Origin: an uncultured Clostridia bacterium
GTDB lineage: Bacteria > Bacillota_A > Clostridia > Oscillospirales > Oscillospiraceae
Assembly: GCA_947166955.1 (NCBI GenBank)
Contig: CAMVGI010000093.1
Coordinates: forward strand, 1-5,887
Direction of reading: 5' to 3'
Length of the DNA: 5,887 nt
Positions 1 through 5,887 of this stretch are shown here, one piece after another. Under the pieces are notes generated by a model. The model was not told the DNA's origin and searched no databases. It was given only the letters and a program-made list of their open reading frames with translations. Within the stretch, counting starts at the first letter, position 1. Each line of letters starts with the position of its first letter. Position numbers and translations under genes: made by a program.

Positions 1-17
1 AGCAGAAGACCGGAACC

Positions 18-1481
18 GTGAGCATCGAGACGCCCCAGCCCGAGCCCGTATCCGTGCCGGAACCCGAACCGCAGCCCGCGACAGAGCAGGGCGTGCCGAA
101 AAAGCTCGTGGGGCTGGTTGCGTCTTTGGTGCTGCTGGCGTGCGCCGCCGCATTTTTCCTGCTGCATGCGCGCGTATTTGCGCCGTTGCACAGGCTCAGG
201 GAAATGACGGGACGTCTGAACAAGTTGGATGCGCGCGAGCTGCGCGCGCAGGCGGACGCCATCGGCGGCGTCGCGGGCGCCGCGGCGCGTGATATTGCGG
301 CGTATGCCGAAGCCATGGAGGAGAACGCGCCCGCGGAGATTCAAGCCCCTGACCGCACGCCGCTGGACGGGGCGGCGGAGCGGCGCGTCGTGGACGAGAT
401 ATGCAGCTCGCTGCTGCCGCAGAGCCTCAAGGAAAACCTTGCGCGGATGACCTTCTCCGTGGCGGGAGGCGTGCAGCGCGGCGTGCGGCGCAACTGTGTG
501 TTTTACGATTACTTTTTCCGCGACGACCGGATGCTCTGCACCGTGGTCGCGCAGGTGCCGGGAACCGGCATCGCCGAGGCGCTGTTTGCCGTGGTCACGC
601 AGACGACGATCCGCAGCCGCCTGCGCATGGGGCGTTCGCTGATCGACGCCATGTCCGACGTCAATACGCAGCTTTACGATCTGGGCGGGCGAGATTCGAC
701 CTGCGCGTTCGTGGGCGTGCTTGACACGATGAACGGGCGCTATACCTTCGTCAACGCCGGCGGCGTTATGCCGATCCTCATGCGAAGCGAGGAGCGTTAT
801 GAATGGCTCAAAACGCCGGCCTACGCTCCGCTCGGCGCAAATGAGAGCGTGAACTACCGTTCGGAGCTGCTGCGGCTCAATCAGGGCGACAGACTGTTCC
901 TTTATACCGCGGATCTCGGGGAAATGACGGATCGGGAAGGAAAGCCGTTCAGCGAGCAGGCGCTGCTCTCCGCGCTGAATCGCAGCCGGAGCAGGACGCG
1001 CGGCACGGAAGAGCTGCTGCGCTTTGTGCAGGACGAGGCGGCGGCGTTTTGCGAGCGGGGCGACGATGTGTTCAGCTCGGCGATGATCGCGCTGGAGTAT
1101 GAAAAGGGAAGCAGGGATTATATCTTTACGCTCGTGCAGGGAAACGTGGAGCAGACGGGCGCCGTGACGAATTTTATGCGCAAGACGCTCTCGGACGGCG
1201 GAGTCGAGGTCAAGGCGCAGGCAAAGCAGATATTGCTGGCGGAGGAGCTGTTTGCGCTGTGCTGCCGCGTGTGCGAGAAGGATGCGGAGGTCAAGATCGA
1301 GTGCGCGCTCCGGCAGGAGGAGGCCGCGATGCATCTGCGTATGTTCGCGCCGATGGGCGGAAAGGACCCGCTGCAAGAGCGCGGCAGCGCGGCGAACTAT
1401 ATCCGCACCCACACGCGGCGCGCGGCGTTTGAGGCGGGGATCGACAGAGATATGGTCGAAATTGAGTCCGAACTGTCCTGA
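18..1481 (+). CDS. Membrane-anchored SpoIIE/RsbU-like PPM phosphatase domain protein, degenerate, with C-terminal RsbW-like domain (start possibly upstream of the window)
   Basis: Counting from the GTG at 18 (487 aa), I see a proline/glutamate-rich segment (residues 6-20), one membrane helix (about 30-49) and a HAMP-like linker (about 52-100, with DAIGGVAGAA in place of DEIGEL). A SpoIIE/RsbU-type domain follows (about 120-362, opening with VVDEICSSLLP), then an anti-sigma-factor-like ATPase fold (about 366-487). Family members dephosphorylate anti-sigma antagonists. Here the metal sites are eroded: GGD is replaced by NCV (159-161), GDVSG by AQVPG (178-182) and YTDG by YTAD (296-299); only the terminal DD (349-350) remains. 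In the C-terminal domain the N-box asparagine is replaced by L414 and no DxGxP motif is visible. Catalysis is therefore doubtful (inference). No clear ribosome binding site precedes 18 and the frame is open back to the window edge, so the start may lie upstream, perhaps with a sensor domain. It is probably co-transcribed with the next two genes. Confidence 0.8.
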   Translation: MSIETPQPEPVSVPEPEPQPATEQGVPKKLVGLVASLVLLACAAAFFLLHARVFAPLHRLREMTGRLNKLDARELRAQADAIGGVAGAAARDIAAYAEAMEENAPAEIQAPDRTPLDGAAERRVVDEICSSLLPQSLKENLARMTFSVAGGVQRGVRRNCVFYDYFFRDDRMLCTVVAQVPGTGIAEALFAVVTQTTIRSRLRMGRSLIDAMSDVNTQLYDLGGRDSTCAFVGVLDTMNGRYTFVNAGGVMPILMRSEERYEWLKTPAYAPLGANESVNYRSELLRLNQGDRLFLYTADLGEMTDREGKPFSEQALLSALNRSRSRTRGTEELLRFVQDEAAAFCERGDDVFSSAMIALEYEKGSRDYIFTLVQGNVEQTGAVTNFMRKTLSDGGVEVKAQAKQILLAEELFALCCRVCEKDAEVKIECALRQEEAAMHLRMFAPMGGKDPLQERGSAANYIRTHTRRAAFEAGIDRDMVEIESELS

Positions 1482-1506: not shown

Positions 1507-3117
1507 GTGAAAAAAATACGGCTTGGGCTGAACGCGCGCATTGCGCTCATTGTTTTGGTTCTGGAGCTTCTGCTCTCGGCAATATTGCTGCTAAACAACT
1601 ACATATCGACCTACCGCGTCTATGCAACCTTCTGTCACGAGCGCTCGCGGCAGATAACGGAGATCGTTGCCGATTGGACGGATTGGGAGAAGATCGAGCA
1701 CTTCGCCGAAACCGGCGAGCCGGATGAATACAGCGAGCAGCTGGCGTATTTCTACAACCAGGTCAAGAGCGGGCTCGGCGAGGAGTGCTACCTTGGCCTG
1801 GTCATTCCCTATGACGAGTATGGAATCACGATCTACGAGGCGGTCGCGCCGGGTGATGATCCTGAGGAGATAGTTCCCTGGGGGCAATCGGCTGATTTCG
1901 GACCAGGGTTTAAAGAAGCGATGGTCCCCGATCTTCGCGCGGGGCACGGCAATGAGACGATCATGATGGGCAGGATGCGCGACGGGGGGCTTGTTCTGAA
2001 TACATGGGAGCCGATTTTCGACAGGGCCGGAACGGTTCGCGCGGTTGTAATTACGCAGCAGACAATGCGCAGCATCGACGGCGATCTGAGAGCTAATATG
2101 CTGCGCATCAGCGGCATGTGCATGTTTTTCATTGCCGCAGCGGCGGCGCTGATCCTGCTGTTCCTTCGGCTGAGCATCACCGGACCGATCAAAAAGCTCG
2201 AGAAAATGGTAGACTCCTATGAAAACGGCGCGTTTACCGAGGAAAAGTTTCGACATGACGACGAGATACAAAGCCTTGCCAATTCTTTTATCGGCATGGC
2301 GCGCCGCATAGAGACCTATACCGACGAGGTGAAGCGCACCTCGGCGGAAAAGGAGCGCATCAACACGGAGTACGGTGTGGCGCGGCAGATCCAGCACGAC
2401 ACGCTGCCGACGGTGTTTCCGGCCTCTCCGGAGCGGAGGGAGTTCGATATTTTTGCCGCCTTGGAGGCAAGCAAAAATATCAGCGGAAACTTCTACGATT
2501 TCTTCCTCATTGACGACGACCACCTTGCGCTGGCGATCGGGGATATTTCGGGAAGGGGCATTCCCGCGGCGCTGTTCATGGTCATGGTCAAGACGCTGAT
2601 CAAGGATCGCTGTTTGCAGGGCGATTCCCCCGCGGAGGCGCTGCAAAGCGTCAGCGAGCAGCTGCTGGAGGGCAATCGGGCGAATATGTTCGCCTCGGTG
2701 TGGCTCGCCGTGCTGGAGCTTTCCACCGGAGCGGGCGTGGCGGTCAACGCGGGACACCAACACCCGATTTTGTGCCGCGCCGGAAAGAAGTTCGAATTGC
2801 AGGTCTACCCCCATTGTCCGCCGATCGCGGCGATGGAGGGCGTCCGCTTCCGCAACCATGGTTTTCAGCTCTCGCCGGGCGACACGCTGTTCGTCTACAC
2901 GGTCGGCGCGGTGGAGGCGCAAAACGGAAAAGGGGAAGCGTTCGGCAAGCAGCGCATTCTGGAGGCGCTGAACCGCGAACCGGAGGCGACTCCCAGCGTG
3001 CTGCTGCAAACGGTGACAACAGCGCTGCACCGCTTTTCCAGCGAAGCGCCGTGCCTTGACGACCGGACGCTGCTGTCAATGAAATACTACGGTAAGGACG
3101 GCGTGTCGAGCCAATAG
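1507..3117 (+). CDS. Two-pass membrane sensor with Cache-like domain, HAMP and SpoIIE/RsbU-type PP2C phosphatase domain
   Basis: The 536-aa product starts at GTG with a positively charged KKIR end. It has membrane helix 1 (about 10-29), an outer sensor region (30-197) with Cache-like features such as WEPIFDRAGTV (167-177), helix 2 (about 201-221) and a HAMP domain (222-275, DDEIQSLANSF at 251-261). A signalling helix with VARQIQHDTLP (291-301) leads into the PPM domain (about 305-530). Relatives couple an extracellular signal to dephosphorylation of an anti-sigma antagonist. GDISGRG (345-351, D346), NAGH and the terminal DD (518-519) are kept. GGD reads SGN (N328) and YTDG reads YTVG (V466), so two of four expected metal aspartates are missing. 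Activity may be reduced or absent (inference). It follows the first phosphatase gene by 25 bases and precedes the leader/zinc-ribbon gene by 32, suggesting one operon. No effector ATPase domain follows the phosphatase domain. Confidence 0.88.
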   Translation: MKKIRLGLNARIALIVLVLELLLSAILLLNNYISTYRVYATFCHERSRQITEIVADWTDWEKIEHFAETGEPDEYSEQLAYFYNQVKSGLGEECYLGLVIPYDEYGITIYEAVAPGDDPEEIVPWGQSADFGPGFKEAMVPDLRAGHGNETIMMGRMRDGGLVLNTWEPIFDRAGTVRAVVITQQTMRSIDGDLRANMLRISGMCMFFIAAAAALILLFLRLSITGPIKKLEKMVDSYENGAFTEEKFRHDDEIQSLANSFIGMARRIETYTDEVKRTSAEKERINTEYGVARQIQHDTLPTVFPASPERREFDIFAALEASKNISGNFYDFFLIDDDHLALAIGDISGRGIPAALFMVMVKTLIKDRCLQGDSPAEALQSVSEQLLEGNRANMFASVWLAVLELSTGAGVAVNAGHQHPILCRAGKKFELQVYPHCPPIAAMEGVRFRNHGFQLSPGDTLFVYTVGAVEAQNGKGEAFGKQRILEALNREPEATPSVLLQTVTTALHRFSSEAPCLDDRTLLSMKYYGKDGVSSQ

Positions 3118-3134: not shown

Positions 3135-3143
3135 AAAAGGAGG
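3135..3143 (+). promoter_or_regulatory. Strong ribosome binding site of the leader/zinc-ribbon gene
   Basis: AAAAGGAGG with a 6-base spacer to the ATG at 3150 is near-ideal. It selects 3150 over the upstream in-frame TTG at 3132, which overlaps the site itself and has no ribosome binding site of its own. The strength suggests higher translation than the two phosphatase genes. Confidence 0.85.
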
Positions 3144-3149
3144 ATCACC

Positions 3150-3524
3150 ATGAACGAGAACATCGATTCCAAGCGGGAATCCGCCCTCAAGAGCATCTTG
3201 GAGCGTCTCACCGACGAGCAGAGGGAAAAGGTGCGGGCGTGCAAGACGGTGGACGAGCTGACGGCGTTTGTGGCGAAGGAAGGGATCGAACTGCCCGATG
3301 AACTGCTCGACGCCGTCGCCGGCGGAGGCTTCTTCACGGAAGAGGATTTGAAGGGCAAAGAGGTCTTTCCGCCGATGCACCCGTGCCCGAAGTGCAAATC
3401 CAAAAATGTAAAAAACTATGATCCGGGCGGAATGTTTCAAATGAGAGTAAAATGCCTCGATTGCGGATACTGGGGCGAATCAGGGGCAAATGCCTATGTA
3501 GCTTGGGCTTCGGTCCGCTGGTGA
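3150..3524 (+). CDS. Nif11-like double-glycine leader fused to a Lar-like zinc ribbon (RiPP-precursor-like protein)
   Basis: The 124-aa product has two parts. Residues 1-60 are charged and helical, with VRACKTVDELTAFVAKEGIE (28-47) and then LPDELLDAVAGGG (48-60). This is the pattern of Nif11-like/TOMM-type leader peptides, in which the double glycine is a processing and export site. Residues 61-124 would be the released part: a linker, then CPKC (79-82), CLDCG (102-106), and a tail AYVAWASVRW (115-124). The spacing and the final A-x-x-AW-x-x-R resemble the restriction-alleviation Lar zinc-ribbon family (PCPFCG...C..CG...AIEAWNRR). Alternatively it is a cytosolic zinc-ribbon protein whose leader serves only for interaction. 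No LanM, radical SAM, YcaO or peptidase-transporter gene lies in the window, so maturation is unproven. The coding call is strong (ideal ribosome binding site, operon position); the family calls rest on motif recognition alone. Confidence 0.8.
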   Translation: MNENIDSKRESALKSILERLTDEQREKVRACKTVDELTAFVAKEGIELPDELLDAVAGGGFFTEEDLKGKEVFPPMHPCPKCKSKNVKNYDPGGMFQMRVKCLDCGYWGESGANAYVAWASVRW

Positions 3525-3676: not shown

Positions 3677-3724
3677 AAGAAGAGATGCCTTCCGACGCTT
3701 CGACGCCGGAAGGCATCTCTTCTT
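3677..3724 (+). terminator. Long perfect stem-loop, probable terminator of the phosphatase/leader operon
   Basis: AAGAAGAGATGCCTTCCG (3677-3694) and its exact reverse complement (3707-3724) form an 18-bp perfect stem around a 12-base loop. The arms are A-rich on the left (continuing into AAAAA) and T-rich on the right (CTCTTCTT), the arrangement of a bidirectional intrinsic terminator. It lies about 150 bases past the last operon gene. The T-tract on the + strand is interrupted by C, so efficiency is uncertain. Confidence 0.6.
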
Positions 3725-3993: not shown

Positions 3994-4000
3994 AAGGAGG
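3994..4000 (+). promoter_or_regulatory. Ribosome binding site that points to an ATT start for the recombinase
   Basis: AAGGAGG is followed by an 8-base spacer and then ATT at 4009, in frame with the recombinase. No ATG, GTG or TTG lies between the in-frame TGA (4003-4005) and the catalytic serine codon at 4036. The next standard start, GTG at 4114, has no ribosome binding site and would remove the catalytic serine. Confidence 0.7.
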
Positions 4001-4008
4001 TGTGACCG

Positions 4009-5550
4009 ATTCTTTGCGCAATCTATACAAGACTGAGTAAGGAAGACGCTGACAAGCAGCAAAACGAATCCGAAAGCATCCAGAATCAAAAGAACCTGCT
4101 GATCCGCTATGCCGTGGAGCACGGGTGGGATATCTATGACGTCTACTGCGACGAGGACTATTCCGGCGCGGACAGGCTGCGGCCCGACTTCAACCGTATG
4201 ATCGACGACGCCGGACAGAAACAGTTCCAAATCGTACTCTGCAAGACACAATCCCGCTTTACCCGTGACATGGAACTGGTGGAGAAGTACATCCACGGAC
4301 TGTTCCCCGTTTGGGGCATCCGCTTTGTGGCGGTGGCCGACAATGCCGATACCGACGTCAAGGGCAATAAGAAAGCCCGGCAGATCGCGGGACTGGTCAA
4401 CGAGTGGTACTTGGAAGACCTCTCCGAAAACATTCGCATGGTCTTTGACATGAAACGCAGGGAAGGACAGTACATCGGCGGTTCGCCCGTCTACGGCTAT
4501 AAGAAGGATCCGGCGAACAAGAACCATTTGGTGATCGACCCGGAGGCCGCGGAGGTGGTACGCCAGATATTCCGGTGGTCGCTGGAGGGGCATGGACAGC
4601 AGAATATCGCCTATATGCTCAACGAACGGTGTGTTGCCAACCCGACGCGGTATAAGGAAGAAAAGGGCCTTGCGCGGAACCACTACTGCAAGCGGGATTT
4701 CGGGCTCTGGAACAAAATCACGGTTTGGCGTATCCTGCGGAACGAGATGTACGTTGGCGTTATGGTACAGGGACGGACAAAGAAGGTCAGCTACAAATCC
4801 AAGGCGCAGATCAATATGCCGGAGGACAAGTGGGTCCGCGTCGAGGGAACGCATGAGGCGATCATTGACCGCAAGACCTTCGACGCGGTGCAGCGAGGAA
4901 TGGACCTGCGCGCCCGCACGGACGGGACGGGAACGATCCACCCGCTCGCGGGATTGGTCAAGTGCATGGACTGCGGCAGTACCATGAGCAAACGAAAGAA
5001 CCGTTATAACCATGAGTATCTGCGATGCAGGCTCTTCATGGACAGCGGCAGGCAGCGGCTCTGCACCAACCACGCCATTCGTCTCGACCGGCTGATCGAC
5101 TATGTTTCCGATCAGGTTCGCGCCTATGTACGGGATTATTTTGACCTTTCAAGGGCCGATCTGCAGCCCAAACAGGACACTCGGACGGCGGAACTGGAGC
5201 GCGAGAAAAAGGCGATGGAGACCGATTTGGAGAAACGCGGCGCTGCGCTGCGTGCGCTTTACCTCGACAAGGTATCGGGTGCGATCAGCGACGGGCAGTT
5301 TGCGGACATAAACGCGGCGTTTCTTGCGGAAAAATCCCGCCTTGAGAGGAAAATCGCCGAAATCGACGGAAAGCTGAGCGAGCGGACGGTGCCGAAAAGC
5401 AAGGACGAGCTGATGCGGCGGGCCGAGGAGCTGCTGAAGCTCGAAACCGTGCCGCGGGAGCTGTTCGTGGCGCTGATCGACGAGATCCGCGTGGGACAGA
5501 GAGACAGCGCGACCGGCGAGCAAAAAATCGAGATCCGCTGGAAATTCTGA
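4009..5550 (+). CDS. Large serine recombinase (resolvase/invertase N-terminus, Recombinase domain, zinc ribbon, coiled coil), ATT start
   Basis: From ATT at 4009 the product is 513 aa. The catalytic domain (1-135) opens LCAIYTRLSKED with nucleophile S10, and has DYSGADRLRPDF (50-61) and the active-site arginines in SRFTRD (R83, R86). The linker helix NEWYLEDLSENIR (131-143) leads to the Recombinase domain (about 148-300, GGSPVYGYKKD). A zinc ribbon follows with C319, C322, C340 and C352, then a long coiled coil (about 391-462) and the family's usual C-terminal strand region ending EIRWKF. These enzymes integrate and excise DNA between short att sites through a serine-DNA link. The length and all domains are intact, so it should be active if translated. 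A start at 4114 would lose S10 and about 35 residues. The gene probably belongs to a small transposon or integrative element; no other mobility or cargo gene is recognised here. Confidence 0.93.
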   Translation: MLCAIYTRLSKEDADKQQNESESIQNQKNLLIRYAVEHGWDIYDVYCDEDYSGADRLRPDFNRMIDDAGQKQFQIVLCKTQSRFTRDMELVEKYIHGLFPVWGIRFVAVADNADTDVKGNKKARQIAGLVNEWYLEDLSENIRMVFDMKRREGQYIGGSPVYGYKKDPANKNHLVIDPEAAEVVRQIFRWSLEGHGQQNIAYMLNERCVANPTRYKEEKGLARNHYCKRDFGLWNKITVWRILRNEMYVGVMVQGRTKKVSYKSKAQINMPEDKWVRVEGTHEAIIDRKTFDAVQRGMDLRARTDGTGTIHPLAGLVKCMDCGSTMSKRKNRYNHEYLRCRLFMDSGRQRLCTNHAIRLDRLIDYVSDQVRAYVRDYFDLSRADLQPKQDTRTAELEREKKAMETDLEKRGAALRALYLDKVSGAISDGQFADINAAFLAEKSRLERKIAEIDGKLSERTVPKSKDELMRRAEELLKLETVPRELFVALIDEIRVGQRDSATGEQKIEIRWKF

Positions 5551-5559
5551 GGGTCGGCA

Positions 5560-5586
5560 TTTTTTGAAAGCAACGCTTTCAAAAAA
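5560..5586. repeat. 12-bp perfect inverted repeat just after the recombinase stop
   Basis: TTTTTTGAAAGC (5560-5571) and GCTTTCAAAAAA (5575-5586) flank a 3-base AAC. The T-run comes before the stem and the A-run after it, the reverse of an intrinsic terminator on either strand, so a DNA site (recombinase binding or element end) fits better than a terminator. It is nested within GGTCGGC (5552-5558) and GCCGACC (5620-5626). Confidence 0.6.
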
Positions 5587-5596
5587 GTGTACTTAT

Positions 5597-5887
5597 GGTG
5601 CGAAGGCACACGTCCTTGAGCCGACCTACACCGTTGCGAACGAGCGGTACCTCGACCTGACGCGGTTTTACGACGTGGAGGCGACGAAGGCGGAGCGCGC
5701 GGCGGTCAAGGCGCACACGGACGCATACCGCGCGGCGTATGCGGAGACGTATCACATCCTGCGCGCGGTGGACGCAATCGAAAGCGAACGGCGCGCCGTC
5801 GTGCGCGCCGCCGCCGACACGGAAAAGCTTGCGCGGCGGATCGCGGGCGTCGCACGGCGCGAGCTGCGCGGCGCGTCTGCGGCGGCT
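5597..5887 (+). pseudogene. 5'-truncated P-loop ATPase-like gene fragment (PRK06851-like), running off the window
   Basis: A frame with no stop runs to the window end and reads GAKAHVLEPTYTVANERYLD, then LTRFYDVEATKAERAA, then a long alanine/arginine-rich helical stretch. This resembles the middle of the Firmicute PRK06851-type ATPases, where a 'DGTAPHVVEP...ERYVDLTRFYD' strand follows the first P-loop half and is succeeded by a helical insert. The DGTAPH residues read YGAKAH here and no Walker A motif precedes them, so the N-terminal part is missing and the gene appears cut by the recombinase element. Translation could restart at TTG 5564 (GAGGG at 5549-5553), which would give a truncated protein. 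The family call comes from memory of its motifs; the coding nature is supported by 91 codons without a stop and consistent codon use. Confidence 0.5.

Follow-up and report, generated by a model that had tools for sequence, protein, structure and literature searches.

A double-glycine leader joined to a predicted C4 zinc ribbon: a candidate precursor of an exported miniprotein in an uncultured Oscillospiraceae bacterium

In the 5,887-nt stretch of Oscillospiraceae DNA analysed here (the window), positions 3150-3524 of the plus strand hold a 124-aa open reading frame with an ATG start, which is a real gene. Its product (P0001) has a double-glycine leader with the C39 recognition positions (L48, L53, V56, G58 and G59), followed by a predicted zinc ribbon. 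We consider, with a probability of about 0.7, that the protein is an NHLM-type precursor of an exported zinc-ribbon miniprotein, cut at the double glycine to leave a 65-residue ribbon outside the cell. Residues 1-59 would act as a Nif11-like, NHLM-type leader bringing the protein to an NHLM ABC transporter, whose C39 peptidase domain would recognise the leader and cut after G58-G59; the ribbon (residues 60-124) would then be exported and would bind zinc outside. Short, often heavily modified peptides are the cargo for which double-glycine leaders of this class are known. The proteins studied here instead join such leaders to compact domains, chiefly C4 zinc ribbons. The ribbons are expanded in G569 and G856, two genomes from a single family, and, if exported, would make up a group of zinc miniproteins secreted by bacteria. 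Profile searches may overlook such miniproteins, because the leaders score below the cut-offs of the curated models and their cores resemble intracellular zinc fingers.

The features of the precursor gene and its surroundings are as follows.

3..1481, plus strand: w1, SpoIIE-type phosphatase, open at the window edge (Pfam, PF07228, 3e-24)
1507..3117, plus strand: w2, SpoIIE-type phosphatase (PP2C) containing a HAMP-like region (Pfam, PF07228, 5e-39)
3137..3143, plus strand: strong ribosome binding site AAGGAGG, with the ATG 6 nt downstream (sequence)
3150..3326, plus strand: leader, residues 1-59, four predicted helices, ending in G58-G59 (sequence, AlphaFold2, relatives)
3327..3521, plus strand: core, residues 60-124, predicted C4 zinc ribbon with C79, C82, C102 and C105 (Pfam, AlphaFold2, fold comparison)
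3384..3395, plus strand: zinc knuckle 1, CPKC, residues 79-82 (sequence)
3453..3464, plus strand: zinc knuckle 2, CLDC, residues 102-105 (sequence)
3679..3722, no strand assigned: 20-pair hairpin 3' of the precursor gene (terminator scan)

The genes w1 and w2 and the precursor gene lie on the same strand in that order, with gaps of 25 nt and then 32 nt. The T-run of the hairpin was detected on the minus-strand side only, so its role as the end of a plus-strand unit is a guess; seven terminator-like sites were found in the window against 3.1 expected. Judged from its sequence, the region 3' of the hairpin looks like a mobile element, in which a small ORF is followed by a serine recombinase (Resolvase, Recombinase and Zn_ribbon_recom in Pfam) and a weakly VirD1-like fragment. 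In the recombinase region (4003-5550) a stop lies at 4003-4005, the frame is open from 4006, GGAGG stands at 3996-4000, and the earliest in-frame ATG, GTG or TTG is at 4114, within the Resolvase domain; the gene may use an ATT start (4009) or may be truncated. The ORF at 5564-5887 has weak similarity to VirD1 (PF07328, 20.0 bits, cut-off 28.2) and is perhaps a mobilisation gene continuing past the window edge. No transporter or maturase was found in the 5,887-nt window; the transporter is presumably encoded elsewhere in the host.

The leader (residues 1-59) ends in LPDELLDAVAGG, with a third glycine directly after it, and the protein ends in AYVAWASVRW. By the register of positions -12, -7 and -4 (L48, L53 and V56), the putative cleavage site falls directly after the double glycine. 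AlphaFold2 predicted helices at residues 3-19, 22-29, 34-44 and 50-56 and strands at 87-90, 98-102 and 108-111, with a mean pLDDT of 69.8, a pTM of 0.37 and pLDDT below 50 at residues 1-5 and 59-61. The helical leader up to GG, the CPKC and CLDC knuckles and the AWASVRW end described in the sequence-only reading were thus all present. The predicted structure has the two CxxC knuckles and the three-stranded ribbon of the C4 zinc-ribbon fold, and through structure comparison we found that the ribbon model aligns with the Dof, RPB9, NrdR and TFIIS ribbons. The whole model gave no Foldseek match at E<=0.001, and the protein gave no match to PDB sequences at E<=1. The core had earlier been called Lar-like, and like Lar it is a small C4 ribbon; however, it scored 20.5 bits against PF14354 (cut-off 28.6) and 13.2 bits against TIGR03655 (cut-off 39.6), so Lar membership was ruled out and only a generic ribbon resemblance is left. 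It also differs from Lar in having a leader of an exporter-linked kind and a core that tblastn did not find in any of 50,697 phage records, for which reason a phage origin of the core was rejected. A leader scan of viral contigs found no confirmed relative, the plasmid search gave no match, and matches to PHROG were weak (best 21.4 bits).

The comparison of the leader with the Nif11 models showed that the window protein scored 11.9 bits (E 0.2) against TIGR03798, below the cut-off of 32.3, and had no match to PF07862 (cut-off 23.8 bits) at E<=1. Among 51 chosen family members, 11 matched TIGR03798 and 13 matched PF07862 at E<=0.01 (best 6.2e-8 for PF07862). The best relative scored in bits, from Eggerthellaceae (L026), reached 30.3 against the 32.3 of TIGR03798; ribbon precursors of G569 reached up to 23.2 bits against the same model, and one of them 23.4 bits against PF07862, for which the cut-off is 23.8. 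From the sub-cut-off scores of the window protein and the matches of its relatives, we conclude that it is a divergent relative of Nif11 leaders and a non-member by cut-off. The earlier suggestion of a Nif11-like leader therefore stands by its relatives, its neighbourhoods and its conserved double glycine, and the resemblance of the N-terminal half to leader families is seen in the relatives, while the direct TIGR03798 profile (11.9 bits) lends it less support. As far as the accessible text of Haft 2010 (PMC2887384) goes, Nif11-like leader peptides also end in GG and form paralogous families with variable cores, as in the window relatives. They differ in that the window leader is under both cut-offs, that the cores of the window family frequently are domains (zinc ribbons, LysM) some 60 aa long, and that the window family has STAS and SpoIIE neighbours, whereas the term 'SpoIIE' does not occur in the accessible text of that paper.

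The leader is a module shared by many proteins. A full-length relative (P0002) is 79% identical to the window protein and keeps all four ribbon cysteines, while three others (P0003-P0005) have residues 1-59 in common with it and no ribbon; these relatives indicate that the window protein is not a product of chance. Of 3666 candidates, 716 matched the profile built from these five proteins at E<=1. Counts below refer to 180 proteins, namely P0001 and the proteins listed from two profile searches (the best 120 of each); the database search behind this set favours leaders with common 5-residue words, and the pattern used for counting, which fits 180/180, itself fixes the leader end (a narrower pattern missed one protein per list). 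The results showed that GG stands at the leader end in all 180, the window protein included, so homologues keep the double glycine, the loss of which had been named as evidence against a leader. Position -12 is L in 178/180, -7 is hydrophobic in 180/180 and -4 is V or I in 170/180, and positions -5 and -8 are variable. Within the accessible text on LahA/LahT of Lachnospiraceae (PMC6363468), mutating the substrates of LahT150 showed that positions -12, -7 and -4 matter and that -5 and -8 tolerate changes; the same important positions are kept in the listed proteins, which supports C39 cleavage. According to the same text, LahA has a Nif11-type leader and several paralogues with diverse cores, as in the window family, and lah is a lanthipeptide operon, whereas the window-family ribbons keep a C4 zinc site.

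Different C-terminal parts behind a common leader, for which a search of paralogues had been proposed, are carried by P0003-P0005 and by 13 pairs of the 180 listed proteins with leaders at least 93% identical and cores below 35%. In 30 pairs the cores are at least 90% identical and the leaders down to 64%. Near-identical cores thus occur behind leaders with just 64-77% identity, and unrelated cores behind identical leaders, from which we conclude that the two halves recombine. The cores under the shared leader are domains of about 60 residues with a terminal cysteine, short Cys peptides, zinc ribbons and LysM; the LysM core (L004:1925-2365, PF01476, 2e-11) is a wall-binding domain.

Ribbon-like cores were found in 46 of the 180 listed proteins (two CxxC in 18, CxxC plus a C/H second knuckle in 13, a degenerate form in 15), a share that is biased because the second search used ribbon proteins as its query; of the 119 cores parsed from the first list, 6 looked like ribbons. 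In the order that includes G003, a Lachnospiraceae MAG, at least 4 of 295 genomes matched, with only some candidates scored, and G569 gave at least 14 matches. Across ten stretches of G569 (L102-L111), all chosen around P0001 matches, 27 of 29 leader ORFs have at least two CxxC in the core, one has none, and one is truncated where the contig stops. Several of these precursors stand in tandem, and the loops between their two CxxC vary. Between the double glycine and the ribbon, close to the former, there is often a fifth cysteine (GGGC or GGC). In G856, which shares its family with G569, ribbons were found in 13/13 leader ORFs on four stretches, in arrays of five and six and as singles. At least 5 of 397 genomes in that family have a leader with a ribbon at E<=1e-10, at most 12 candidates having been scored per genome. 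When the window protein was aligned with G569-type proteins, the leader, the GG and the four cysteines fell in the same register; the invariant cysteines are no independent evidence, because the rows were picked as C4 ribbons. These results indicate that the fusion of this leader to a C4 ribbon recurs among relatives and that the combination is rare by species.

The leader scan of GTDB genomes gave at least 39 loci, apparently mostly in ruminant-gut MAGs, 15 of which have an exporter or a radical SAM maturase within 10 kb and 24 neither. The gene order at L008 is ABC1-ABC2-leader x3-radical SAM-STAS-MatE gene-SpoIIE, and it is similar at L001, L002 and L017; L053 (G004) has ABC1-ABC2-leader-STAS-SpoIIE and no radical SAM gene. 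ABC1 scored above the TIGR03796 cut-off (NHLM_micro_ABC1) in 3/3 tested loci (L001, L008, L017), ABC2 above that of TIGR03797 in the single locus tested (L008), and Pfam found a C39 domain in the L008 transporter. C39 exporters thus adjoin precursors at some relatives, as in known NHLM ABC1/ABC2 systems. The Q/Cys/His/Asp motifs are present in 18/20 ABC1-typed ORFs. Of 14 leader-bearing genomes (18 minus G014, G015, G016 and G018; 40 candidates scored per genome), 10 had an ABC1 above cut-off, compared with 19/200 genomes of one family sample, scored less deeply (5 candidates per genome); in the sample of the G002 family there was no clear coincidence of leader and ABC1 (1/5). Ribbon genes themselves stand beside exporters in two genomes: G410 (L113) has STAS-orf-ABC1 (898 bits)-ABC2-ribbon-ribbon-SpoIIE, both ribbons being C4, and in G947 (L141) a C4 precursor directly follows ABC1 and ABC2, typed by phmmer. 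Many precursors are scattered in the genomes, away from clusters. Precursors are likewise scattered in prochlorosin producers.

The radical SAM maturase beside relatives has PF04055, a SPASM domain and CX3CX2C, and the 25 NCBIfam models listed for each protein all scored below cut-off for this family, which adjoins many leaders. Its N-terminus is predicted to form three strands, two helices and a strand, which fits an RRE-like domain, whose topology we take to be this one. The best structural matches were SkfB (6efn) and SuiB (5v1t), the latter aligned from residue 1-3; with these and 5why, presumably CteB, the maturase has the RRE-like N-terminus, CX3CX2C and SPASM in common, and it differs from them in having no NCBIfam model above cut-off and in being absent from the window. 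In 18 genomes, 12 of 14 maturase matches at E<=1e-100 adjoin a leader (exceptions G015:C37 and G018:C137), against about 0.12 expected by chance if genes are evenly spread. In some relatives, the same leader would also serve an RRE-like radical SAM-SPASM enzyme that could modify the core. At L011:2053-3561, the C-terminus of a maturase ORF continues into the leader-end motif ELPDELLNAVAGG and a short core, which may be either a natural maturase-precursor fusion or an assembly artefact.

Expression of the precursor is probably linked to a SpoIIE/STAS partner switch, of which w1 and w2 would be the representatives in the window. Over its length, w2 is 37-39% identical to the SpoIIE proteins of L002, L008 and L053, and with the SpoIIE of L012 it shares 55% identity across 261 aa. 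SpoIIE homologues lie within 10 kb of a leader in 8 of 68 matches against 1.9 expected, but the best w2 match in G001 lies away from leaders, in a leaderless stretch with w1-like, MFS, w2-like and STAS genes. These results suggest that the regulatory link is likely and not specific, and SpoIIE was rejected as a cluster hallmark.

Taken against other explanations, the secreted or processed zinc ribbon of the sequence-only reading is the best one, favoured by the relatives' clusters and by the C39 transporters adjoining some of them, though not by the direct profile scores. The presence of the maturase raises the alternative that it alters core residues, cysteines or others, to give a cross-linked peptide and no zinc ribbon. 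We consider this unlikely, since the two CxxC that zinc binding needs are kept in 18/46 ribbon-like cores and in 27/29 of those in G569, and the G410 ribbons have no typed maturase-family member in their 14-kb stretch. The docking tag, which had been offered as the other use of the leader, would remain uncut and bind a maturase or membrane protein, with the ribbon intracellular, for example on nucleic acid. That the fold matches are mostly nucleic-acid or polymerase ribbons, and that 24 loci have neither exporter nor maturase nearby, agrees with it. However, conservation of GG and of -12, -7 and -4 suits a protease site, the same leader carries a LysM core, and ribbon genes directly follow ABC1-ABC2 in G410 and G947; a pure docking role is therefore less likely than export, and we rate it as rather improbable. 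The serine recombinase and VirD1-like ORF downstream would suit a chance or decaying fusion without function beside a mobile element, which we hold to be very improbable given the hundreds of related precursors and P0002, the full-length relative with 79% identity and all four ribbon cysteines.

Beyond the exported-miniprotein reading, the G569 ribbons, in which the knuckles are fixed and the loops vary, point to a binding scaffold. A tentative extension, which we regard as possible and somewhat doubtful, is that some gut Clostridia have an exported zinc-ribbon arsenal to which the window gene belongs. Nif11-like leaders would deliver sets of a dozen to at least two dozen ribbon miniproteins, exported by NHLM transporters and turned on by the SpoIIE/STAS partner switch; with two knuckles fixed and loops freely varying, they would form a diversified extracellular scaffold with a logic like that of defensins or knottins. 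In the open-licence literature, we found no paper joining zinc ribbon and Nif11, none joining zinc ribbon, leader peptide, RiPP and radical SAM, and none joining Nif11, leader peptide and Ruminococcaceae; in the accessible text of the Hungate1000 bacteriocin paper, a term search found no Nif11, NHLP or NHLM.

Some further observations concern the cores and gene copies of relatives. A cysteine lies within the last three residues in 146 of the 180 listed cores, many of them otherwise unrelated, and is missing from the window core; it is possibly a common modification or anchoring site. In-frame stops were found in leader or maturase copies of three genomes (G006:C435, G009:C53 and G004:C120), which are probably decaying genes. 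Short tandem repeats serve as cores after leaders at L039:9941-10342 and L008:9434-9883 (GTGPL; GIG(D/E)NSTK).
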